A stretch of 26,883 nucleotides of DNA, taken from a virus. Positions within the stretch are counted from its first letter, which is position 1. Every line of letters starts with the position of its first letter. The notes beneath the pieces were generated by a model that was given only the letters and a program-made list of their open reading frames with translations, ran no database searches and was not told where the DNA came from. A program made the position numbers and the translations under genes. The stretch covers positions 1 through 26,883 of the IMG/VR virus record IMGVR_UViG_3300027659_000178; one strand, written 5' to 3'. Below are positions 438 to 20,469 of this stretch, piece after piece.

Positions 438-463
438 TTATCCACAACCTGTAGTTATCCACA
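438..463 (+). promoter_or_regulatory. Pair of DnaA-box-like sites
   Basis: Two perfect TTATCCACA 9-mers lie at 438-446 and 455-463 in the same orientation, 17 bp start to start. This is the consensus DnaA box known from E. coli and matches one of the box types in the large array at 5040-5895. They stand in a gene-free stretch. Binding of DnaA is inferred from sequence only. Confidence 0.55.
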
Positions 464-1162: not shown

Positions 1163-1309
1163 GTGACTAGGGAAGAACTCCTGCAGCGTTTGGTTGATCC
1201 GGATCATCTGATGCAAGATGTGATTGCGGCGTTCATGTGCACGGTAGTGTTCGGCAGACTTCCAAAGCCGTTTACCGTGAAGCTCAGCGCATACCGAAGT
1301 GAGAAGTGA
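1163..1309 (+). CDS. Possible mini-protein (48 aa), hypothetical
   Basis: A GTG at 1163, nine bases after the stop of the upstream gene, opens a frame reading VTREELLQRL... and ending ...LSAYRSEK. It looks protein-like: an acidic/hydrophobic helix (EELLQRLVDPDHLMQDVIAAF), then a basic tail. No strong ribosome binding site is present, so translation would rely on coupling to the gene at 737. Its last 26 bases overlap tail-to-tail with the minus-strand kinase gene ending at 1284, which lowers confidence. Confidence 0.45.
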   Translation: MTREELLQRLVDPDHLMQDVIAAFMCTVVFGRLPKPFTVKLSAYRSEK

Positions 1310-1886
1310 ATCCGCCTTGTGGAGAGATCTCAATTGATCTACGGGTGACTAGATCAGCAGCGTCCTTAACAAGTGCTAAGGCTTGGTCTTGCCACGCAGC
1401 AAGAGTACCGTCGTTGGCAAGCGTGAAGTCGAATACGGCGTCGTGTGAGTGGTCAGCAATTCCGGGGCGAGTGATGTTGACAAGAACACCACGGCGGAGA
1501 ATCACCGCATCAAACTCGTTCGGGTAGTTCAGGTCAGTGATGATGTACTTCTGGCTTGGGGTGTAGTTATGCAGTACGGACTCAATCACAGCGTCTGGGC
1601 CAACGCAGTCTCGTGTGGCCTTAGTAGTTTGATCTAGAAGTCTGGTGATTTCTTCATAGTCTGATTTAGCACGCGCCCATCCCATCTGGTCAATGAGTGA
1701 GCGCAGTCGCATTATCCCGACGCCACCTTCAATAGCAAGGCCAGCATGGATCATCGGGTTCATCTGGTACAGCATGGACTCAGCTGTGGAACCAAAGCGT
1801 ATGTGGCTGTAGCCAAAGTCCTCAACTAATACCTGGGCGAGCGTGTGCTTTCCAGTATGGTCAGCCCCGTGAAGCCCGATAATCAT
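1284..1886 (-). CDS. Deoxynucleoside monophosphate kinase-like protein (copy 1)
   Basis: A P-loop NTPase of 200 aa of the phage dNMP kinase type, which phosphorylates deoxynucleoside monophosphates towards dNTPs for phage DNA synthesis. The Walker A region is G7-ADHT-G12-K13-H14-T15, directly followed by LAQVLVEDFGYS. The start (ATG at 1886) has a GGAG site. The C-terminal half of the second copy at 19582-20469 is clearly related: LVEDFGYS and an NP(M/I)I segment are shared, IITDLNYPNEFD aligns with VIPDVRFENEID, and both keep NDGT near the end. Here the residue after the P-loop Lys is His, where the other copy has Asp, and D-R-F is replaced by D-L-N-Y. It may therefore differ in substrate or activity. 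It is the only kinase-like gene on the minus strand and stands apart from the late genes. Confidence 0.75.
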   Translation of the reverse strand: MIIGLHGADHTGKHTLAQVLVEDFGYSHIRFGSTAESMLYQMNPMIHAGLAIEGGVGIMRLRSLIDQMGWARAKSDYEEITRLLDQTTKATRDCVGPDAVIESVLHNYTPSQKYIITDLNYPNEFDAVILRRGVLVNITRPGIADHSHDAVFDFTLANDGTLAAWQDQALALVKDAADLVTRRSIEISPQGGFTSHFGMR

Positions 1887-2504: not shown

Positions 2505-5021
2505 TTGTCTGACTTGAGTTTGGCACAACAGATTGCCGCGCTTGACCCTGAGACTCGTGAGAAACTTCTTGCGGGTATTGACTCTGACTCTTTGCTGTAC
2601 GACTGGAGATTCTGGGGAAGACCAAACCAACTTCTGCCAGACGATGACTCATGGCATCTTGCGTTGTTGCTTGCTGGTCGTGGTTACGGCAAAGGCTTAG
2701 TGCTTGACACTCCGGTTCCAACTCCTACGGGTTGGACAACTATGGGTGAACTCAAGGCTGGTGATGAAGTCTTTGATGAACAAGGTCGCGTGTGCCGTGT
2801 GCTGATTGCACATGATGAGTACGTTCCGGAAAAAGCTTACCGCTTGACGTTCTCTGATGGAACACACATTGATGCGTGTGATCTGCATCAGTGGGTGACG
2901 TGGACATACCGTGACAAGAAGCAGTACTTGCGGCACGCTGAAAGAGATGGTCACTCGCGTATGGGCTACCCTGAGGATTGGGCTTCGTGGGCAGGCGCAA
3001 CTAGTTACACAGATAAGCACGGCCACGAGATTGAGACTAAACCTTACGGCTCAGGTATACGGATCACTCAAGACATTGTTGATACCTTCACTCACCGAGG
3101 CGAGCGACCAAACCACAGCATCCCACTTGCCGGTGCACTACAAACTCCTGAGGCCGACCTTGCCGTTGATCCGTGGGTGTTAGGGATGTGGCTTGGTGAC
3201 GGCTCACGTTCATCAGGAGACTTTACCTGTGCAGCTAGTGACTCGGCTTGGCTTGCAGAAACGCTGATGGCTTCTGGTTGTAACGTGTCACGCATACGGC
3301 CTGATGAGAACCGTGGATGGACTGTAGGGACTAAGGGACTCAAGGTTCAACTTCGTGAGGCTGGGGTAGTAGACAGCAAGCACGTGCCAGACATTTACAT
3401 GCGGGCATCAGAGAGTCAGCGGCTTGCACTGTTGCAGGGTCTTATGGACTCGGATGGGTTCTGTGACAAGCGCGGGTCAGTAGAGTTTTGCAACACGAAC
3501 AAGGGCTTGGCTCTTGCTGTGCTGGAACTTGCGCGGTCTTTGTCTGAGCGTCCTGTGCTTGCGGTCGGTAGGGCGACCTTGAACGGCAAAGACTATGGAG
3601 AGAAGTACCGAGTCACATGGAGACCTTCAAAGCACATACCGTTCAAGTTGCCGCGCAAGATTTCCCGGCTTCATAACCTTCCAGCTGCTCGGGTGTTTGT
3701 CTCTAGGCAGCGTGTGATCACTAGCTTCACTGAGATCACAGGTGCTGAGATTCCAGTCATGCGCTGTATCACTGTGGACTCTCCCAACTCCATGTACCTT
3801 GCCGGTGAGGGGATGATCCCAACACACAACACACGGGCTGGCTGTGAGTGGGTGCGTGAGATGGCTATATCTAAACCTGGATCTCGTGGAGCCATTGTTG
3901 CGCGTACTACTGCTGACGCACGTGACACTCTTGTTCAAGGTGAGAGTGGCATCCTGGCTGTCCATCCACCGAGTGAGCGACCTGAGTGGGAACCATCAAA
4001 GCGTCGTCTAGTGTGGCCCAACGGCTCTACCGCGATCTTGTACACAGCTGATGCTCCTGACCAACTTCGTGGACCACAGCAGGAGTGGGCACTAGCAGAC
4101 GAGGTAGCTACATGGTCGTACGTGCCTGATGCTTCAGGGTTGACTGCATGGGACAACCTTCGCGTGTCAACGCGTCTAGGCAAGAACCCCAAGATCGTTG
4201 CAATGACCACACCTAAGCGGACTCCCTTCTTACGTGAGCTGCTTGAGTTGGTAGAGAAGGACGACGGGATCATCCTTCGCCGTGGATCAACAATGGACAA
4301 TGCGGGCAACCTGTCTCAGGGATACCTTGACACGATCCTTGGATTGTATGAAGGTACGTCACTAGCGCGTCAGGAACTCTACGGCGAGATGCTAGACAAC
4401 GTCGAAGGCACTATGTGGCAGGACGACCTGATTGATCCTCTTCGTGTGAGTCAACTTCCTAGCGGTCTGTCCATCGTCGTCGGTGTTGACCCATCCGTGT
4501 CTGAGAACCCACGAGACGAGTGCGGGATTGTTGTTGTGGGCAGTACACGTGAGCGCCAGATCCATAAGCGTCAAGGCTTTGTGATTGAGGATGCGAGCGT
4601 GCATGGCTCTCCAGGTGTGTGGTCTAGGCGTGTGGTTGCTATGGCCAACAAGTACCGTGCTCCCATCGTTGCTGAAGTCAACCAAGGTGGTGCTCTTGTG
4701 CGCAGTGCCATTCATGGAATTGATCCAACTGTGCGAGTCATTGATGTCCGGGCTCATGTTGGGAAGGCTTTGCGTGCGGAGCCAGTAGTCCTGGCCTATG
4801 AGCAGTTGCGGGTGCATCACTTGGGCATACTTCCAGACCTTGAGTCTCAGATGCTTGGCTGGGTGCCAGGTGAGTCCAAGCGGTCTCCGGACAGGATTGA
4901 CGCACTCGTGCATGGTCTGTCTGCGCTGTTGGTCAAGCAGCCTCCAGGGTTCAGCGCGGGCGGTATGCGGACTAGGTCTGCTTCGGGTAATGTGCCCACG
5001 CCGCCTATTCGCAGATGGTAG
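2505..5021 (+). CDS. terL: Terminase large subunit (TerL) interrupted by an intein
   Basis: TerL is the ATP-driven motor and nuclease that cuts phage DNA and pumps it into the prohead through the portal. The 838-aa reading from a TTG start (GAGGGT site upstream) contains a 379-aa intein at residues 64-442; the spliced product would be 459 aa, a normal TerL length. Splicing joins AGRGYGK to T443-RAGCEW, restoring the Walker A motif GRGYGKT. Walker B is LADEVATW (D532, E533), followed by the coupling motif MTTPK. The C-terminal RNase H-like nuclease shows the expected acidic residues: D662 in VVGVDPS, E724 in VAEVNQGG, and D796/D799 in SPDRIDA. Without splicing the ATPase would be broken, so the intein must splice for packaging. 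It is followed directly by the DnaA-box array. Confidence 0.95.
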   Translation: MSDLSLAQQIAALDPETREKLLAGIDSDSLLYDWRFWGRPNQLLPDDDSWHLALLLAGRGYGKGLVLDTPVPTPTGWTTMGELKAGDEVFDEQGRVCRVLIAHDEYVPEKAYRLTFSDGTHIDACDLHQWVTWTYRDKKQYLRHAERDGHSRMGYPEDWASWAGATSYTDKHGHEIETKPYGSGIRITQDIVDTFTHRGERPNHSIPLAGALQTPEADLAVDPWVLGMWLGDGSRSSGDFTCAASDSAWLAETLMASGCNVSRIRPDENRGWTVGTKGLKVQLREAGVVDSKHVPDIYMRASESQRLALLQGLMDSDGFCDKRGSVEFCNTNKGLALAVLELARSLSERPVLAVGRATLNGKDYGEKYRVTWRPSKHIPFKLPRKISRLHNLPAARVFVSRQRVITSFTEITGAEIPVMRCITVDSPNSMYLAGEGMIPTHNTRAGCEWVREMAISKPGSRGAIVARTTADARDTLVQGESGILAVHPPSERPEWEPSKRRLVWPNGSTAILYTADAPDQLRGPQQEWALADEVATWSYVPDASGLTAWDNLRVSTRLGKNPKIVAMTTPKRTPFLRELLELVEKDDGIILRRGSTMDNAGNLSQGYLDTILGLYEGTSLARQELYGEMLDNVEGTMWQDDLIDPLRVSQLPSGLSIVVGVDPSVSENPRDECGIVVVGSTRERQIHKRQGFVIEDASVHGSPGVWSRRVVAMANKYRAPIVAEVNQGGALVRSAIHGIDPTVRVIDVRAHVGKALRAEPVVLAYEQLRVHHLGILPDLESQMLGWVPGESKRSPDRIDALVHGLSALLVKQPPGFSAGGMRTRSASGNVPTPPIRRW
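2694..3830 (+). mobile_element. Class 3 intein with LAGLIDADG homing endonuclease, inside the TerL Walker A
   Basis: Residues 64-442 of the TerL reading form a protein-splicing element inserted between the Lys and Thr of the P-loop. The N-terminal block reads LVLDTPVPTPTGWTTMGEL, but the first residue is Gly (G64), not the usual Cys or Ser. The signature of class 3 inteins is present instead: Trp at block B position 12 (H128-Q-W130), Cys at block F position 4 (C421 in MRCITVDSP) and Thr at block G position 5 (T440 in PTHN), with terminal Asn442 and Thr443 as the +1 residue. Class 3 inteins use the block F Cys as first nucleophile, so Gly1 is compatible with splicing. Two dodecapeptide motifs mark the homing endonuclease: VLGMWLGDG (D232) and LLQGLMDSDG (D315/D317), both with acidic residues kept, so it may still be active. 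Confidence 0.92.
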
Positions 5022-5039: not shown

Positions 5040-5895
5040 TTATCCACAGCGTTGTCCACATGGTTGTCCACAGGTTATCCACATGGTTGTCCACAGCCCA
5101 GACCAAGTTATCCACAGCGTTGTCCACAGGTTATCCACATGGTTGTCCACAGCCCAGACCAAGTTATCCACAGCGTTGTCCACAGGCCATGCGGCGTTAT
5201 CCACAGCCCAGACCAAGTTATCCACAGCGTTGTCCACAGGCCATGCGGCGTTGTCCACATGGTTGTCCACAGGTTGTCCACATGGTTGTCCACAGGCGAG
5301 CTCAAGTTATCCACACGGTTGTCCACAGGCCATGCGGTCGGCGTTATCCACAGGCCATGCGGTCGGCGTTTGTGCACAGCCAAGACCAAGTTGTCCACAG
5401 CCAAGACAAAGTTATGCACAGGCATCAACAAAGTTATGCACAGGCATCAACAAAGTTATGCACAGGCCAGCTCAAGTTATGCACAGGCATCAACAAAGTT
5501 ATGCACAGGCATCAACAAAGTTATGCACAGGCCAGCTCAAGTTATGCACAGGCATCAACAAAGTTATGCACAGCCCAGACCAAGTTGTCCACAGCCCAGA
5601 CCAAGTTATCCACAGCCAAGACCAAGTTGTCCACAGCCCAGACCAAGTTATCCACAGCGTTGTCCACAGCCAAGACAAAGTTATGCACAGGCATCAACAA
5701 AGTTATGCACAGGCCAGCTCAAGTTATGCACAGGCATCAACAAAGTTATGCACAGGCCAGCTCAAGTTATGCACAGGTATCAACAAAGTTATGCACAGGC
5801 ATCAACAAAGTTATGCACAGGCCAGCTCAAGTTATGCACAGGTATCAACAAAGTTATGCACAGGCCAGCTCAAGTTATGCACAGGTTTATCCACA
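5040..5895 (+). repeat. Array of 47 DnaA-box-like 9-mers, all in one orientation
   Basis: The stretch consists of TTATCCACA (12 copies), TTGTCCACA (16), TTATGCACA (18) and TTGTGCACA (1), all on the plus strand. They fit the known DnaA-box consensus TT(A/T)TNCACA and the actinobacterial preference TTGTCCACA. Start-to-start spacing is 11, 12, 21 or 22 bp throughout, apart from 25 and 26 bp around 5344-5370. Between boxes lie a few recurring spacers such as GCCCAGACCAAG, GCATCAACAAAG, GCCAGCTCAAG and GGCCATGCGGCG. Box types are zoned: 5040-5399 mainly TTRTCCACA, 5412-5572 only TTATGCACA, 5585-5668 TTRTCCACA, 5681-5883 only TTATGCACA, then a last TTATCCACA at 5887. Long open frames through it exist only because the repeat lacks stop codons. 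A replication origin or a DnaA-titrating decoy are the leading ideas; no phage initiator gene is seen in the window. Positions 5896-5999 hold nothing clear except a weak hairpin at 5926-5946. Confidence 0.93.
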
Positions 5896-6188: not shown

Positions 6189-6207
6189 CACATCTCCTGA
6201 ATAAAAG

Positions 6208-6219: not shown

Positions 6220-9200
6220 GTGCTGATAGACTATATGAACGCGTATCGTACTAGAAAGCGAGTAGTTGTGGCTTCGTACCCTGAAGATATCCCAGACTTG
6301 ACCCGGCCAGTTCACTCTGACCCTGCAGCCGACGACTCTGCTACCGATGCCACAGTCATCGTAGACGCGATCTCAGACGAGATTGAAGCCATTGCAACTG
6401 AGCTTGGTGTCAGCCCAAGCGGGGAATATGAAACAGTCGTGGAAAGACTAGATGCTCTAGATGAAACTGACTGGACTAGTTTTGAAGTTTCTTCTCAATA
6501 CCGCGCTGGTACTGGACAAGTTCTAAAGTTTACTGATGAGACGCAACAGTCTATTATCGCTGCCCCAGATGCAACAGAGACTTACCCAGTCGCCCAAAGA
6601 CTAGTCGTGCAGGGTCCAGATGGATTCCTAAACAGTGACGGGGAGGGCGGAGACGTCTACCTGTGGGCTGGTGACGGAGCTGCTGACAACGGATCTGGCG
6701 GTGACATTAAGGTTGATGGTGGCCAAGGAGTAGGCACAGGCAGTGGTGGAACTGTAAAGGTTAGGGGCGGGGATACCCCAGATGGAACCGGAGGATATAT
6801 ACAGATAACCTCCGGAGAGTCAACCAACGGAGACGGCGGTTATGTACAGATAAACACTGGAGGCTCAAGCACGGCCAATGGTGGAAACATCAGCATTTAC
6901 AGTGGAAGCGGCGCCCTAAGCGGTGGCGACATTGACATATACGCTGGTTATGGAGACGGAGCTGGAGAAGGAGATTCTGGCGGAACAGTCACAATTTCCG
7001 GAGGAAACACCTCTGGTGGTACTGCAGGAAACGTCGTACTAGAGACTTTTAGCGGTGGAAAAGTTATTCTTGTTGGTAACGGCGGGGAGTTCTTAAACTC
7101 TGGTGAAGACGCAGATAACCAGATCGCAACTATGGGAGACCTAGACGCGCTAGCAGCACTTGGATTTACTTTCCTCGGAGCTTACACCGACTCAGTCAAC
7201 TACGCAGTAAACGATGTTGTCTCGTACGAAGGCTCATCCTACGTCTGCATCTCCCCAGTTACAGCCAACACTCAGATTGTCCCCGATGCTGAACCCTCTT
7301 ACTGGTCAGTTATGGCAGTTAAGGGTGCAGACGGCGCACCTGGCGCACCTGGCGATCCTGGTTCTCCAGGAGACCCTGGAGATCCAGGTGACCCCGGCCC
7401 CCCAGGCGAGAGCGCATACGAAGTTGCTGTTGCTAACGGATTTGTCGGTGACCAGGCAGCGTGGCTTGCTTCCCTTGAGGGTTCCCCTGGCGCACCTGGA
7501 AACGACGGAGAAGGCGTTCCAGTAGGCGGAGCAACTGGACAAATTCTGGCTAAGATTGACGGAGATGACTTCAATACCGAGTGGATTGATAACGAAGCAG
7601 TCTATTCAGGATTTACTTCAACAGTAAAGCACGCGGTCAGAGCCGCAGAAAATATCTCAAAGGGCCAGGCTGTCTACATTAGTTCTGCTAACGGAACTAA
7701 CATGATTGTCTCCAAGGCTTCCAACGCTACAGAGTCATCATCATCTAAGACTCTTGGACTCATGGAGTCCACTGTTGCTACAAACGGAACAGCAAACGTA
7801 GTAGTAGAAGGATTGCTCGCGGGACTAAACACAGGAACAGCTAACGCTGGAGACCCTGTGTGGCTTGGAACTGCAGGAAACCTTATCTACGGTCTAGCAA
7901 ACAAGCCTTACGCTCCTGATCACCTAGTTTCAATTGGTATTGTCACGCGAGCAAACGCCAGCACCGGAGAAATATTCATCAAGCCACAAAACGGCTATGA
8001 GCTCCGTGAGATACATGATGCACAGATATCAGCATCTCCAGTAGACGGCGACATTCTTGAGTATGAGTCTTCCACTGGTCTTTGGAAGAACAAGACTAGC
8101 TCGTCTGTGACTTCAAGAAACGTTGAGTCCAACGGACTTAGCGGCGTTCCAGTTTCATCAGACCCAGTAGTTATGAAGAATCCTCCAACTGTAACACTGG
8201 TAACGGACACTGGTGCCACCACCATCACGGGCGCAACACGTCGCCTGCCATCGCGTGACGGTTCAGACTTTACCTACTTAGGTGCGACATACGCAAACGT
8301 CGGAACAGTTGGTTCTTACACAAACTGCTACCGCCAAACCGGCCTAACTATTGCCAACGCCGCTGGTCAGATTGACAACCTTTTACGTTTTGAGTTTGAG
8401 ACTGACGCTGACCAATTGGAAATCTTGGTGCGTTCTGAGGATTCTACTCACGCCAAGTACCGCCTTTGGGTGGACGGCGAACGGGTCACGGAGTCTGAGT
8501 CAGCAGTTATCGGATCTGCGACGTCTTGGCGTCGCGTAAAAATTGTGTTCGCTTCTGCAACTAATCGCCGCATAACCTTTGAGGGCCAAGAGTTGACTTT
8601 TGGTGGCATCTTTGCTCTACCTACTCGCACCACTTGGCCTACGTCCCGCGACATCGGCCCCAAGGTTATTGTCGTGGGCGACTCCTACGGTACCTCGTTT
8701 GACACCGATGTTAAATGGGTATGGGACTCTTACGCTGTGGTCGCTGGGCGCCTACTGAACTGGAATGTTAACCCTTCCTTCGTTTCTGGCACAGGTTATG
8801 TTCAGGACGGTTTCGGTAGTGGTGAATCAACGTACGGTTCACGGTTCGCGGCTGACGTTACCGCCCTATCCCCGGACATTGTTGTGTTTACTGGTGGCCT
8901 GAACGACAACGCGGTAAGTCCGCTAACCCTGGTACAGACGGCTATCACGTCCCTATTCGCCGCCGCTAAAGCCGCGCTACCTGCCACCCGTTTCCTTGTC
9001 CTGGCCCCGTTCCGTCCTACCGATACCTATTACACGAGCCTAAACACTATTGCAGGGTACCTTTACGCGCAGGCCCTAGCTAACGGGTTCACCTATGTTG
9101 GCCAGCCGATCGAATACATCCAAGGCACCGGAACCGTCGCCGCCCCAACGGGCGTGGGGAACTCAGACTTTTACACGCTGGCCGATACTTACCACCTGAA

Positions 9201-9834
9201 CCCGGCGGGCTATGAGTTTTTGGGCCGCCGTCTTGCCGCCGAAATCCAAGACAGTACGCGCGACTGGTGGGCCACGGACCGCCTCGCCACGATGGCCGCG
9301 TCCAAGCGTGGGTTAGTACCCGCCCCCGCCGCGTCCCCATCCGCGAGCAAATACCTAACCGAAACAGGAACGTGGGCAACGGCGAGCGGTGGTGGTGGTG
9401 GTACCACCATCACGGCTGTCAGGGCGTACCGATCCGCCGGTCTGAACGTCACCACTGGGCTAGTCCAGGTCGGGTTTAACACGCAGTCCTACAGCGACGT
9501 AGCTGGGTACCACAGCACCACCGTAAATAATGCGCGTTTCAAGGCCCCCGCTGCTGGGCGCTACCGCCTCACGGCGCAGGTCGCCATGACAAATATTGGC
9601 AATCATGGCGCCATTATGGGCATTGACAAAAATGACGATCTAAACTTTCTTTACCAGCAACTATTGTACGCCGTTCCAGCTGGGGACCTAGTGGGGCAAG
9701 TCGTGGCCCAGGCGACAACCGGCTGGGTGAACCTAGCGCTAAACGACTATCTCGCGGTATCGGTGTTTACTGATGATACCAACTACGACATTACCGCCAA
9801 TAACACTTGGGCAGTTTTTGAGCGCGCTGTCTAA
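6220..9834 (+). CDS. Multidomain tail fibre with collagen repeats and SGNH hydrolase (1204 aa)
   Basis: A modular host-contact protein. Residues 1-127 are a helical base (VVERLDALDE). Residues 130-290 are glycine-rich repeats with alternating strands (GGDIKVDGG, GGYVQINTGG), likely a beta-helix-like shaft. Residues ~316-367 resemble a carbohydrate-binding CBM5/12-type module (YAVNDVVSYEGSSYVC ... SYW). From residue 369 come about nine collagen Gly-X-Y triplets, with a shorter set near 424-435. Residues ~810-1020 are an SGNH/GDSL hydrolase: nucleophile S822 in GDSYG, G857, N895 in GGLND, and D989/H992 in DTYHLNP. This domain probably removes acyl groups from host surface glycans. Residues ~1068-1204 look like a trimeric jelly-roll tip. 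The last third is visibly GC-richer than the first two thirds, which suggests a domain acquired by recombination. The start is GTG at 6220; an ATG at 6235 is an alternative, and neither has a strong ribosome site. Confidence 0.9.
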   Translation: MLIDYMNAYRTRKRVVVASYPEDIPDLTRPVHSDPAADDSATDATVIVDAISDEIEAIATELGVSPSGEYETVVERLDALDETDWTSFEVSSQYRAGTGQVLKFTDETQQSIIAAPDATETYPVAQRLVVQGPDGFLNSDGEGGDVYLWAGDGAADNGSGGDIKVDGGQGVGTGSGGTVKVRGGDTPDGTGGYIQITSGESTNGDGGYVQINTGGSSTANGGNISIYSGSGALSGGDIDIYAGYGDGAGEGDSGGTVTISGGNTSGGTAGNVVLETFSGGKVILVGNGGEFLNSGEDADNQIATMGDLDALAALGFTFLGAYTDSVNYAVNDVVSYEGSSYVCISPVTANTQIVPDAEPSYWSVMAVKGADGAPGAPGDPGSPGDPGDPGDPGPPGESAYEVAVANGFVGDQAAWLASLEGSPGAPGNDGEGVPVGGATGQILAKIDGDDFNTEWIDNEAVYSGFTSTVKHAVRAAENISKGQAVYISSANGTNMIVSKASNATESSSSKTLGLMESTVATNGTANVVVEGLLAGLNTGTANAGDPVWLGTAGNLIYGLANKPYAPDHLVSIGIVTRANASTGEIFIKPQNGYELREIHDAQISASPVDGDILEYESSTGLWKNKTSSSVTSRNVESNGLSGVPVSSDPVVMKNPPTVTLVTDTGATTITGATRRLPSRDGSDFTYLGATYANVGTVGSYTNCYRQTGLTIANAAGQIDNLLRFEFETDADQLEILVRSEDSTHAKYRLWVDGERVTESESAVIGSATSWRRVKIVFASATNRRITFEGQELTFGGIFALPTRTTWPTSRDIGPKVIVVGDSYGTSFDTDVKWVWDSYAVVAGRLLNWNVNPSFVSGTGYVQDGFGSGESTYGSRFAADVTALSPDIVVFTGGLNDNAVSPLTLVQTAITSLFAAAKAALPATRFLVLAPFRPTDTYYTSLNTIAGYLYAQALANGFTYVGQPIEYIQGTGTVAAPTGVGNSDFYTLADTYHLNPAGYEFLGRRLAAEIQDSTRDWWATDRLATMAASKRGLVPAPAASPSASKYLTETGTWATASGGGGGTTITAVRAYRSAGLNVTTGLVQVGFNTQSYSDVAGYHSTTVNNARFKAPAAGRYRLTAQVAMTNIGNHGAIMGIDKNDDLNFLYQQLLYAVPAGDLVGQVVAQATTGWVNLALNDYLAVSVFTDDTNYDITANNTWAVFERAV

Positions 9835-14068: not shown

Positions 14069-15367
14069 ATGATGGAGTTACTTCAGCTTTTTAATCCTAC
14101 AGATACAGTCATCATCCAAGATGACATTTCACTAACCGCAGAAGAGTTCTCAAATGCCAGCTACAAAGTTGCTGGTTATGTTGCAAAAAACTTTCCTGAC
14201 TCAAAAGTTATTGGTGTTAGATCAGATAACAGCGTTTACGGATTATTCTTAGCCTGCGGGGCGGGTCTTGCTGGCAAGCATGTCCTACCTCTGTCTACGC
14301 TTAACGATGGAACCCTCAACGACTACGCCATAAAGAACACAGGCTGCTCCGATTTCATCGGATACGGCACAGACCTAGATCATTCTGATGTCAAGAATAT
14401 TTTTAATCTTCCCGACTTTGAAACTGATGCAACCCCTGGAGACTACGTATTCTTGTCTTCTGGTTCAACAGGTAAGCCAAAGATCCATCTAAACAACCTT
14501 CTCCAGTGGGATGAGGGTGTCCCTCAAGCACGAGCAGATCTTTACTTCTCTAAAAGTATTACTAAGAGTAACAAGGCTTTTTACGCTGCTCCTGTTATGA
14601 CTGGCATCGGATCATACTTAGCATTTATGAACATTGGTTTGGTTCCTGTCTACACAGCTGGCCCACCAGCCACAGAAGCAATGCTTCACCTAATAGACAA
14701 GTACGAAATAGAAGCATCTACTGGACGTCCAGCATTGTTGGATAGATTTGCCATGTACGGGGTCACTGACTTCGGTGGTGTCAAGACACTTATCTCAGCA
14801 GGAGATTTCTTAACCGAGGACAACATAAAGTTTGTCACAGAGAAGATGAACATCCAAAATATTATTGACTGCTACAACTGCTCCGAGACTGGGATCATCG
14901 GTGTTAGAGAAGCTCTAACAGAAGATGAATTTACTTTGATGGATGATGTTGTCATCAGTGACGTAACAGATCTTGATTTTGAAGTTAAATCAATGAGTAC
15001 TGCTGGGATGATTATTGACTCAGAGGTTGTAAGAATGAGCACCAAGAGAGTTGACGATATTGTTGAGCTCAACGGTAACAAGCTAAGGCTGGTCGGAAGA
15101 TCTGTTAAAAAAGTAAAAGTAAACGGATTCTCTGTTTCACCTTCTATCATCGCAACTGCTGCCCTTCAGATAGCAGAGATCAACGACTGCATTGTCAAGG
15201 TAGACACAGAGAAAATAGACAGCTCTAACGTAATTGTGCTGAACTACACAGGCGAAAAGTGCGACGACGCTTACATCCTTGAAAACCTAAAGAAGAGACT
15301 CCCTTCGTACTCTCTACCTAAGAAAATAAACTATGTCCCTGTGGATAGCTGGGGAGTAATAAAGTGA
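14069..15367 (+). CDS. ANL-superfamily adenylate-forming enzyme (AMP-binding, acyl-CoA synthetase-like), 432 aa
   Basis: Enzymes of this superfamily activate a carboxylic acid with ATP to an acyl-adenylate and pass the acyl group to CoA, a carrier protein or another acceptor. The order of core motifs is kept: the P-loop A3 (LSSGSTGKPK, residues 129-138), an A4-like segment (AAPVMTGIGSY, 173-183), A5 (YNCSETG, 269-275), the A7/A8 hinge (VDDIVELNGNKLRLVGR, then VKVNGFSVSP, 328-358) and an A10-like end (LPSYSLPKKINYVPVDSWGV). At 432 aa it is shorter than the usual ~500-550. At A10 the position of the catalytic Lys after Gly is Val (G429-V430), with a Lys only as the last residue, so the adenylation step may be altered. 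Two adjacent ATGs open the gene, with a GAAGG site. It is locked between tail genes and coupled to the GNAT-like gene by GTGA. The substrate is unknown. Confidence 0.88.
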   Translation: MMELLQLFNPTDTVIIQDDISLTAEEFSNASYKVAGYVAKNFPDSKVIGVRSDNSVYGLFLACGAGLAGKHVLPLSTLNDGTLNDYAIKNTGCSDFIGYGTDLDHSDVKNIFNLPDFETDATPGDYVFLSSGSTGKPKIHLNNLLQWDEGVPQARADLYFSKSITKSNKAFYAAPVMTGIGSYLAFMNIGLVPVYTAGPPATEAMLHLIDKYEIEASTGRPALLDRFAMYGVTDFGGVKTLISAGDFLTEDNIKFVTEKMNIQNIIDCYNCSETGIIGVREALTEDEFTLMDDVVISDVTDLDFEVKSMSTAGMIIDSEVVRMSTKRVDDIVELNGNKLRLVGRSVKKVKVNGFSVSPSIIATAALQIAEINDCIVKVDTEKIDSSNVIVLNYTGEKCDDAYILENLKKRLPSYSLPKKINYVPVDSWGVIK

Positions 15368-15810
15368 TAGACAACATAAGATTTGTCATGCTCACAGGCG
15401 AAGACGAGCAACTCATCGGCACAAACGACGGAGCGCACGCAACCGGAGTAGCACTAAACGAGAACAACGAGTGTGTTTCAATCTCTTCGCAATACTGGAC
15501 TGAGCGTGGCAGTCTTTGCGCCAACTGCACGAGAGATTGTGCATGGGGAGGAATTGTTTGGACTCGCCCTGACTACCAGAACCAGGGAATATTTACCATG
15601 CTCTTTTTCTGGGTAAGAGAGCAAGCTGGGATTAACAAAACCTATATCTCTAAGAATGATCCATTTAATCTTCTTCTTGCAGATAAGTGGAACTTGTCTA
15701 TTCCAGACAACATTGAGAGTCTTCCAGCACTTGGTAATACCTATTCACTTTTTCTGCGTGCAGGTGAAATAGCGGACAGCGTCACGACAAGATTCCAAGC
15801 CGATGCCTAG
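15364..15810 (+). CDS. GNAT-like N-acyltransferase (148 aa)
   Basis: GNAT enzymes transfer an acyl group from acyl-CoA (or an acyl carrier) to an amine. The protein shows the central strand-helix of the fold, VWTRPDYQNQGIFTMLFFWV (residues 65-84), with Q72-N-Q-G75-I-F77 in the place of the acyl-CoA-binding Q/R-x-x-G-x-G/A loop; the last Gly/Ala is Phe. A later KTYISKNDPFNLLLADKWNL fits the C-terminal part of the fold. Unusual is a cysteine cluster C52-x2-C55-x3-C59 just before motif A. The GTG start overlaps the stop of the ANL gene (GTGA), and its own stop overlaps the next fibre gene by 8 bases. The family call rests mainly on motif A, so a non-catalytic relative is possible. Confidence 0.65.
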   Translation: MIDNIRFVMLTGEDEQLIGTNDGAHATGVALNENNECVSISSQYWTERGSLCANCTRDCAWGGIVWTRPDYQNQGIFTMLFFWVREQAGINKTYISKNDPFNLLLADKWNLSIPDNIESLPALGNTYSLFLRAGEIADSVTTRFQADA

Positions 15811-19581: not shown

Positions 19582-20469
19582 GTGACAGAGCACACCGAAC
19601 CGCTAAGCCTTTCTTTGATTTACCCCCACGGGGAGAACTTCATTGATGTAGCCGAGTATGTTCAGATGATCCACAATCATCTTGGAATATTTGCTAAGTC
19701 CGTCATTGACTGTGACTCCCCTGGGTGCGATACCCCAGACAACTTGCTCTACCAACGTCTAGCTGCTGTGTTTGATCCAGATAACTCAGACGGAGTGATC
19801 GTCTACCCTGGATGGGAAAACTGCGCGTCATCGCGCGAAGCCGTAAAGGTTGCCTACCGAGCCAGACTTCCCATCTACCGCATCGGCATGACAGATGCTG
19901 GCCCAGCACTCCTTCCTCGCGTAGAGGTAGTAGGTGTTTGCGGGTGGGCACAGTCTGGTAAAGACACTGTGGCTGGTGCGCTGGTTGAAGACTTTGGTTA
20001 CTCCAAAGCATCATTTGCAGATACTTTGCGCGACATCGTTTCGGTACTTAACCCGATCATCTCCGACACTGGGGTTCGCTACGCGGACTCAGTTAGAGAC
20101 ATTGGCTACGAAGAGACCAAGCGCGTCTACCCTGAGTCCCGCAGAGTCTTGCAAGTGCTTGGAACTGAGGGTGTTCGTGAGTTCCTTGATGAAGAAGCAT
20201 GGCCTCTGTCCCTCTACCTGAAGATCCAAGATGGAGCAAAGGTAGTTATCCCTGACGTCAGGTTTGAGAACGAGATTGACTTTGTTCGGTATTGCGGAGG
20301 AAAGGTCTGGTGGGTAAGTCGCCCTGAAGTATCCGCCCCGCCGTTTGCTCACGCGACCGAGAACTCAATTTCCCCAGACCATACGGATAACATTATCACT
20401 AATGACGGTACAGTTATTGATATTGCTCGTAAGGTTTCAGCACTGATGCGTGAGGACAGCAATGATTGA
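19582..20469 (+). CDS. DUF4406-like domain fused to dNMP kinase (295 aa, copy 2)
   Basis: The GTG start has a TAAGGA site. Residues ~10-105 resemble DUF4406-type, nucleoside 2-deoxyribosyltransferase-like proteins: YPHGENFIDVAEYVQMIHNH, then DGVIVYPGWENCASSREAVK and ARLPIYRI. Residues ~115-293 are a P-loop deoxynucleoside monophosphate kinase: Walker A G121-WAQS-G126-K127-D128-T129, then LVEDFGYSKASFADTLRD, TEGVREFLDE, VIPDVRFENEIDF and NDGT. The kinase would supply dNDPs for phage DNA synthesis, and the N-terminal part may bind or process nucleosides. It is a paralogue of the minus-strand gene at 1284-1886, which has only the kinase part. The stop overlaps the next gene. Confidence 0.85.
   Translation: MTEHTEPLSLSLIYPHGENFIDVAEYVQMIHNHLGIFAKSVIDCDSPGCDTPDNLLYQRLAAVFDPDNSDGVIVYPGWENCASSREAVKVAYRARLPIYRIGMTDAGPALLPRVEVVGVCGWAQSGKDTVAGALVEDFGYSKASFADTLRDIVSVLNPIISDTGVRYADSVRDIGYEETKRVYPESRRVLQVLGTEGVREFLDEEAWPLSLYLKIQDGAKVVIPDVRFENEIDFVRYCGGKVWWVSRPEVSAPPFAHATENSISPDHTDNIITNDGTVIDIARKVSALMREDSND

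Follow-up and report, generated by a model that had tools for sequence, protein, structure and literature searches.

A stretch of 856 bases in an uncultured freshwater phage carries 47 perfect copies of the DnaA-box motif TTRTSCACA, all facing the same way and spaced in step with the DNA helix. By far the most plausible ligand of these sites is the host initiator DnaA. The reading we favour, at somewhat less than even confidence, is that the stretch is a titration array, i.e., a decoy or sponge for DnaA comparable to the E. coli datA locus.

Sequence and organization of the array

The stretch of DNA analysed here (the window; 26,883 nucleotides) is a 26.9-kb IMG/VR virus record, a fragment of an uncultured freshwater phage whose hosts are probably actinobacteria. 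A pattern search of the window located TTRTSCACA 47 times at positions 5040–5895, on the + strand throughout. The copies comprise 12 TTATCCACA, 16 TTGTCCACA, 18 TTATGCACA, and 1 TTGTGCACA, and the initial annotation, which had counted 47 same-direction DnaA-box-like sites of these four forms in about 856 bp, was therefore exact. Outside the array the window contains two further sites (starting at 438 and 455), both on the + strand, and none is present on the - strand of the whole window. In 100 dinucleotide shuffles the window held a mean of 1.37 sites and a maximum of 5, as against 47 in the array, so that several consensus 9-mers occur together far above chance, as is characteristic of a DnaA-box cluster. 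Box positions 1, 2, 4, 6, 7, 8, and 9 are invariant in 47 of 47 copies, and no + strand site with a single mismatch was found within the array stretch. The boxes vary at position 3 (A/G) and position 5 (C/G) only; the spacers vary too.

Judged by sequence, binding of DnaA to these boxes is very likely. DnaA is the most plausible ligand because 28 of the 47 boxes are TTRTCCACA, i.e., TTATCCACA or TTGTCCACA, both high-affinity forms of the DnaA box (PMC4285127), and the 18 TTATGCACA boxes match the E. coli consensus TTWTNCACA (PMC5835720). The high-affinity actinomycete box is TT(G/C)TCCACA (PMC4285127), a form that may not be that of the host itself. The 19 boxes with G at position 5 do not conform to it, and most of them fit the E. 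coli consensus instead.

Successive boxes are separated, start to start, by 11, 12, 21, 22, 25 or 26 bp only. These distances correspond mostly to one or two helical turns, the best phase being obtained at a period of about 10.8 bp. With all 47 boxes on the + strand at spacings that include 11/12 and 21/22 bp, the array shows the common box direction expected of a datA-type titration locus. Among the 21/22-bp units, of which 11 are distinct, 7 of 9 columns in the box are invariant, compared with 2 of 12 in the spacer (Fisher p=0.009). Because the boxes are perfect and helically spaced while the spacer sequence varies, the array looks like the outcome of selection on a head-to-tail DnaA-binding surface rather than a set of neutral repeats.

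The array is composed of segments that differ in box type and density (Table 1). The last of these contains a 108-bp duplication (99% match), and the longest exact repeat inside the array is 100 bp; the exact copy number consequently depends on one metagenome assembly. Directly to the right of the two extra boxes, at positions 510–701, a poly-C run precedes a GC-rich repeat of 37 bp that is present in 4.1 copies (99% match).

Table 1. Coordinates of the array, its segments and the adjoining genes in the window.
Feature	Position	Strand	Remarks
Two extra TTATCCACA boxes	438..463	+	17 bp apart; second also followed by a G run (TTATCCACAGGGGGAGGG)
terL (terminase large subunit)	2505..5021	+	Intein-like insertion at the Walker A motif
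Whole array, 47 TTRTSCACA boxes	5040..5895	+	11/12, 21/22 and 25/26 bp spacings
Dense half, mostly TTATCCACA/TTGTCCACA	5040..5399	+	One TTGTGCACA at 5370; many gaps of 2–3 bp (11–12 bp start to start)
Eight TTATGCACA boxes	5412..5572	+	21/22 bp apart
Five TTATCCACA/TTGTCCACA boxes	5585..5668	+	Spacers common with dense half
Ten TTATGCACA boxes and last TTATCCACA	5681..5895	+	TTATGCACA boxes at 21/22 bp; last box followed by a G run
Tail fibre-like gene	6220..9834	+	First + strand gene past the array, with carbohydrate-binding module, collagen-like stretch and GDSL hydrolase

Two other readings of the stretch were rejected. Long + strand open reading frames cross it because the boxes, read in this direction, are free of stop codons; one such frame overlaps terL. 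An RNA element is not indicated either, there being no Rfam match and a folding weaker than that of shuffled sequences (z=+2.4). No tRNAs were found.

Genomic setting and distribution among relatives

The stop codon of terL lies 18 bp upstream of the array, whose neighbours are terL, a 63-aa open reading frame without a Pfam match, and the tail fibre gene. The intein-like segment of TerL comprises about 370 aa and ends in HN; it is absent from the TerL of phage DSL-LC01. Relatives of both TerL and the portal protein are found in Microbacterium and Gordonia phages and in DSL-LC01, a 129-kb lake phage with a host predicted as Actinomycetia. DSL-LC01 is the nearest complete relative and encodes a polymerase, a helicase, and a primase/helicase.

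Three close relatives (L124–L126; portal identity 95–99%) match the window only from about 9.9 kb rightwards. The left 9.8 kb is covered by no close relative, and the array is thus without a second assembly; in L125, the gene to the left of the shared region encodes a different, fibre-like protein. In the window 16 kb separate terL from the portal gene, as against at most a few kb in most relatives with both genes, so that the region may have been rearranged, or misjoined at the array repeat. Elsewhere in the window, positions 14069–15810 within the tail module contain a gene for an AMP-binding enzyme and a 148-aa open reading frame, with 95–100% identity in L125; the latter resembles an acetyltransferase by eye and has no PHROG match. 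Two different deoxynucleoside monophosphate kinase-like genes are also present, at 1284–1886 (- strand) and 19582–20469 (+ strand).

No cluster of at least four boxes was found near terL in 80 relatives (59–64% identity), nor across the complete DSL-LC01 genome, and these sequences contained only 12 TTRTSCACA sites in 1.2 Mb. Similarly, no cluster of at least three boxes occurred near the gene in 80 loci of relatives of a 174-aa protein. Clusters on mixed strands do occur at other places in two of 16 longer records (G019 and G025) of phages with relatives of this protein. Dense mixed-strand clusters are seen in L426 (G025:112500–119500) and L285, both from lake phages of roughly 117–129 kb sharing the 174-aa protein. 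From its absence near terL in the 80 relatives and throughout DSL-LC01, we conclude on comparative grounds that the array is an accessory, lineage-specific element. Its location after terL is true for this phage and is not conserved.

Similar clusters in other phages

The initial annotation knew of no described phage element of such size and regularity, and yet the array is not without parallel, since smaller arrays of similar spacing recur across many unrelated viral contigs and among cultured phages. When viral contigs were scanned for three boxes close together, one scan gave at least 120 stretches and another 106, and a strict 21/22-bp four-box pattern was matched at 16 viral and 11 bacterial-genome loci. 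A search for TTATGCACA tandems with the spacers of the array gave two 3-box loci only. The biggest other clusters have 24 (L237), 22 (L263), and 21 (L310) boxes; none above 24 was found, so that the array is about twice the size of any other encountered. Same-direction spacings of 11–23 bp numbered 229 in 77 non-redundant viral clusters, and 159 of them were 11, 12, 21 or 22 bp, a count that is descriptive because spacings within one cluster are not independent. L134 and L142 have eight and seven boxes every 21–22 bp with completely different spacers.

Contigs L263 (76,232 b) and L310 (75,238 b) are 84% identical and have a homologous end base in common, about 1.3 kb away from the array of each, which suggests that this base is a true genome terminus. 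In a further group (L295, L060, L112, and L012) the clusters adjoin the terL-portal genes, while that of L329 is just upstream of terL; in L069 and L329 the clusters are beside helicase or primase genes. The 24 boxes of L237 (749–1346), 23 of them in one direction and many 21/22 bp apart, are located on a contig binned as Anaerolineaceae and adjoin a gene for a 1314-aa protein matching phage families; L237 may come from a virus or mobile element that was not recognised as such.

Small unannotated clusters were also found in cultured phages, including Klebsiella Molineuxvirinae, Berlinvirus A7, Vibrio BD1/BD5, the T5-like DT57C, Arthrobacter Seahorse, and Lactococcus LW81 (the loci include L338, L340, L341, L342, L343, and L344). 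Those examined have 4–6 perfect boxes each, mostly in one direction and in several cases at 11/12 or 21/22 bp. Some are at or near genome ends: Seahorse (L341 3391–3434) has four boxes 48–91 bp from the genome end, and the boxes of BD1 are at most 150 bp from the end of the record. In F4M1D the boxes precede the early genes, being upstream of ocr and the RNA polymerase gene. Vibrio BD1 encodes its own RNA polymerase and primase/helicase, and neither this phage nor Molineuxvirinae, Berlinvirus A7 or DT57C is expected to need DnaA. The clusters of cultured phages and of contigs such as L263, L310, and L134 are thus like the array in being mostly one-way; they are often near genome ends and in phages with replication enzymes of their own, and differ from the array in size, with 4–6 boxes in cultured phages and up to 22 in viral contigs compared with 47.

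Taken together, these clusters apparently form a scattered, undescribed class of phage arrays, of which that in the window is the largest found. In the largely open-access literature searched, we found no account of phage DnaA decoy arrays or of phage DnaA-box arrays as a class; DnaA boxes in a phage were reported there only within an Ori-Finder origin prediction (PMC11512268).

Possible functions of the array

In the titration reading, the stretch would be a non-coding, cis-acting DnaA-binding array. Host DnaA would bind the same-facing boxes and could form a head-to-tail assembly on a single face of the helix, and each copy made as the phage genome multiplies would add 47 sites. Free, probably ATP-bound DnaA would be pulled off the host oriC, initiation on the host chromosome would drop, and nucleotides and replication machinery would be left to a phage with no need of DnaA. 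The virus would in effect carry a datA or titration cluster of very large size. Both titration in vivo and the benefit to the phage are conjectural steps in this scheme.

We favour this reading because the essential boxes of datA all face one way, a geometry described for head-to-tail DnaA (PMC5742627), and because in E. coli both initiation and growth suffer from extra copies of datA or from plasmids with DnaA boxes (PMC5742627, PMC5835720). Like the array, datA is a non-coding cluster whose essential boxes share a direction and whose extra copies depress initiation. It differs in that two of its boxes match the consensus and a few more are degenerate, with an IHF site that is essential, compared with 47 perfect boxes on a phage. 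A Streptomyces DnaA-box cluster outside oriC is reported to regulate chromosome replication (Smulczyk-Krawczyszyn et al. 2006, as cited in PMC5742627); according to this citation it is likewise actinobacterial, although chromosomal rather than phage-borne.

Several observations weigh against a decoy. A single infecting genome brings in 47 sites, a small number relative to the DnaA pool of the whole cell, so that titration would need prior phage replication or hydrolysis of DnaA-ATP. The 19 boxes with G at position 5 are weaker than the actinomycete optimum TT(G/C)TCCACA (PMC4285127). Moreover, the absence of an array near terL in the 80 relatives and the small size of the clusters in most cultured phages mean that the array is not a general need of the phage group, and the frequent position of clusters near genome ends or packaging genes suits a terminus function as well.

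Among the alternatives, a DnaA-dependent phage replication origin, at which DnaA would assemble on the array, open nearby DNA, and load helicase, comes first but is unlikely. Bacterial origins are defined by clusters of DnaA boxes (PMC4285127), oriC in E. coli and Streptomyces consists in part of head-to-tail low-affinity arrays, and the clusters beside helicase or primase genes in L069 and L329 are consistent with such a role. The array, however, is not flanked by an AT-rich unwinding element: from about 300 bp before it to about 300 bp past it, 50-bp bins reach at most 58% AT, and the nearest richer bin, with 68% AT, starts at 6201. The nearest DnaA-trio run is at 7799, 1.9 kb away. The array has no initiator (Rep) gene beside it, as an iteron origin would require, and no helicase gene, nor are dnaA and dnaN neighbours as at oriC. 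In addition, relatives with their own polymerase, helicase, and primase replicate without the array. For these reasons a classical origin is less likely than a titration array. Of the proposals in the initial annotation, the identity of the DnaA boxes and the decoy fit the evidence, whereas the origin is weakened. No clear sign of an origin was seen in the GC skew at the array. To our knowledge, 47 boxes is far above the count in any known origin, and oriC boxes do not all face one direction.

A genome-end or packaging element ranks next and is also improbable. DnaA would serve here as a host architectural protein at the terminus, in terminase cleavage, end protection or concatemer processing. 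The start of the array 18 bp past the terL stop, the clusters by terL-portal genes or upstream of terL in other contigs, the boxes near the Seahorse genome end, and the common end base of L263 and L310 are all compatible with this proposal. Against it, the array sits inside the contig, relatives package their DNA without one, and tens of boxes exceed the needs of a packaging signal.

There is little to recommend the idea that slippage enlarged a neutral tandem repeat here, or that the array arose in assembly, with the boxes kept by recent copying only. Local duplication of units is evident in the 108-bp and 100-bp repeats, and the lack of a close relative for the left 9.8 kb together with the 16-kb terL-portal gap would allow a misjoin. 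Copying would not explain, however, why the boxes are invariant while spacers differ, why variation is confined to positions at which DnaA boxes are known to differ, why a near-integral helical phase is kept, or why unrelated phages keep boxes between fully diverged spacers. Least probable of all is that DnaA on the array is a roadblock to transcription, ending the terminase transcript or insulating the tail genes: the boxes share one direction and come immediately after a gene, neither an intrinsic terminator nor a sigma-70-like promoter was found at the array, and a DnaA/box complex reportedly blocks RNA polymerase at E. coli asnC, but one or two boxes are enough in that case, 47 phased boxes would be excessive, and other clusters are not generally behind same-strand genes.

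Extending the titration reading beyond this phage, we speculate, with less confidence than for the array itself, that many unrelated phage families independently evolved one-way, helically phased DnaA decoys, often near genome ends, which stop host initiation by titrating or inactivating DnaA, the array in the window being an extreme case. DnaA-box clusters and bacterial titration loci were already known; a phage-borne one-way array of such size is a new form of them. The phage blocks on host replication initiation that we know of so far are proteins. If the titration reading is true, a DNA sponge for DnaA would represent a different route of takeover, one that works through nucleic acid and not through an inhibitory protein, and would account for the DnaA-box clusters that stand unannotated in well-studied phages (T5-like, SP6-like). 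Such a sponge is readily tested on plasmids, and a natural 47-box, one-way, helically phased array offers a ready substrate for studies of DnaA filament assembly and initiator titration.
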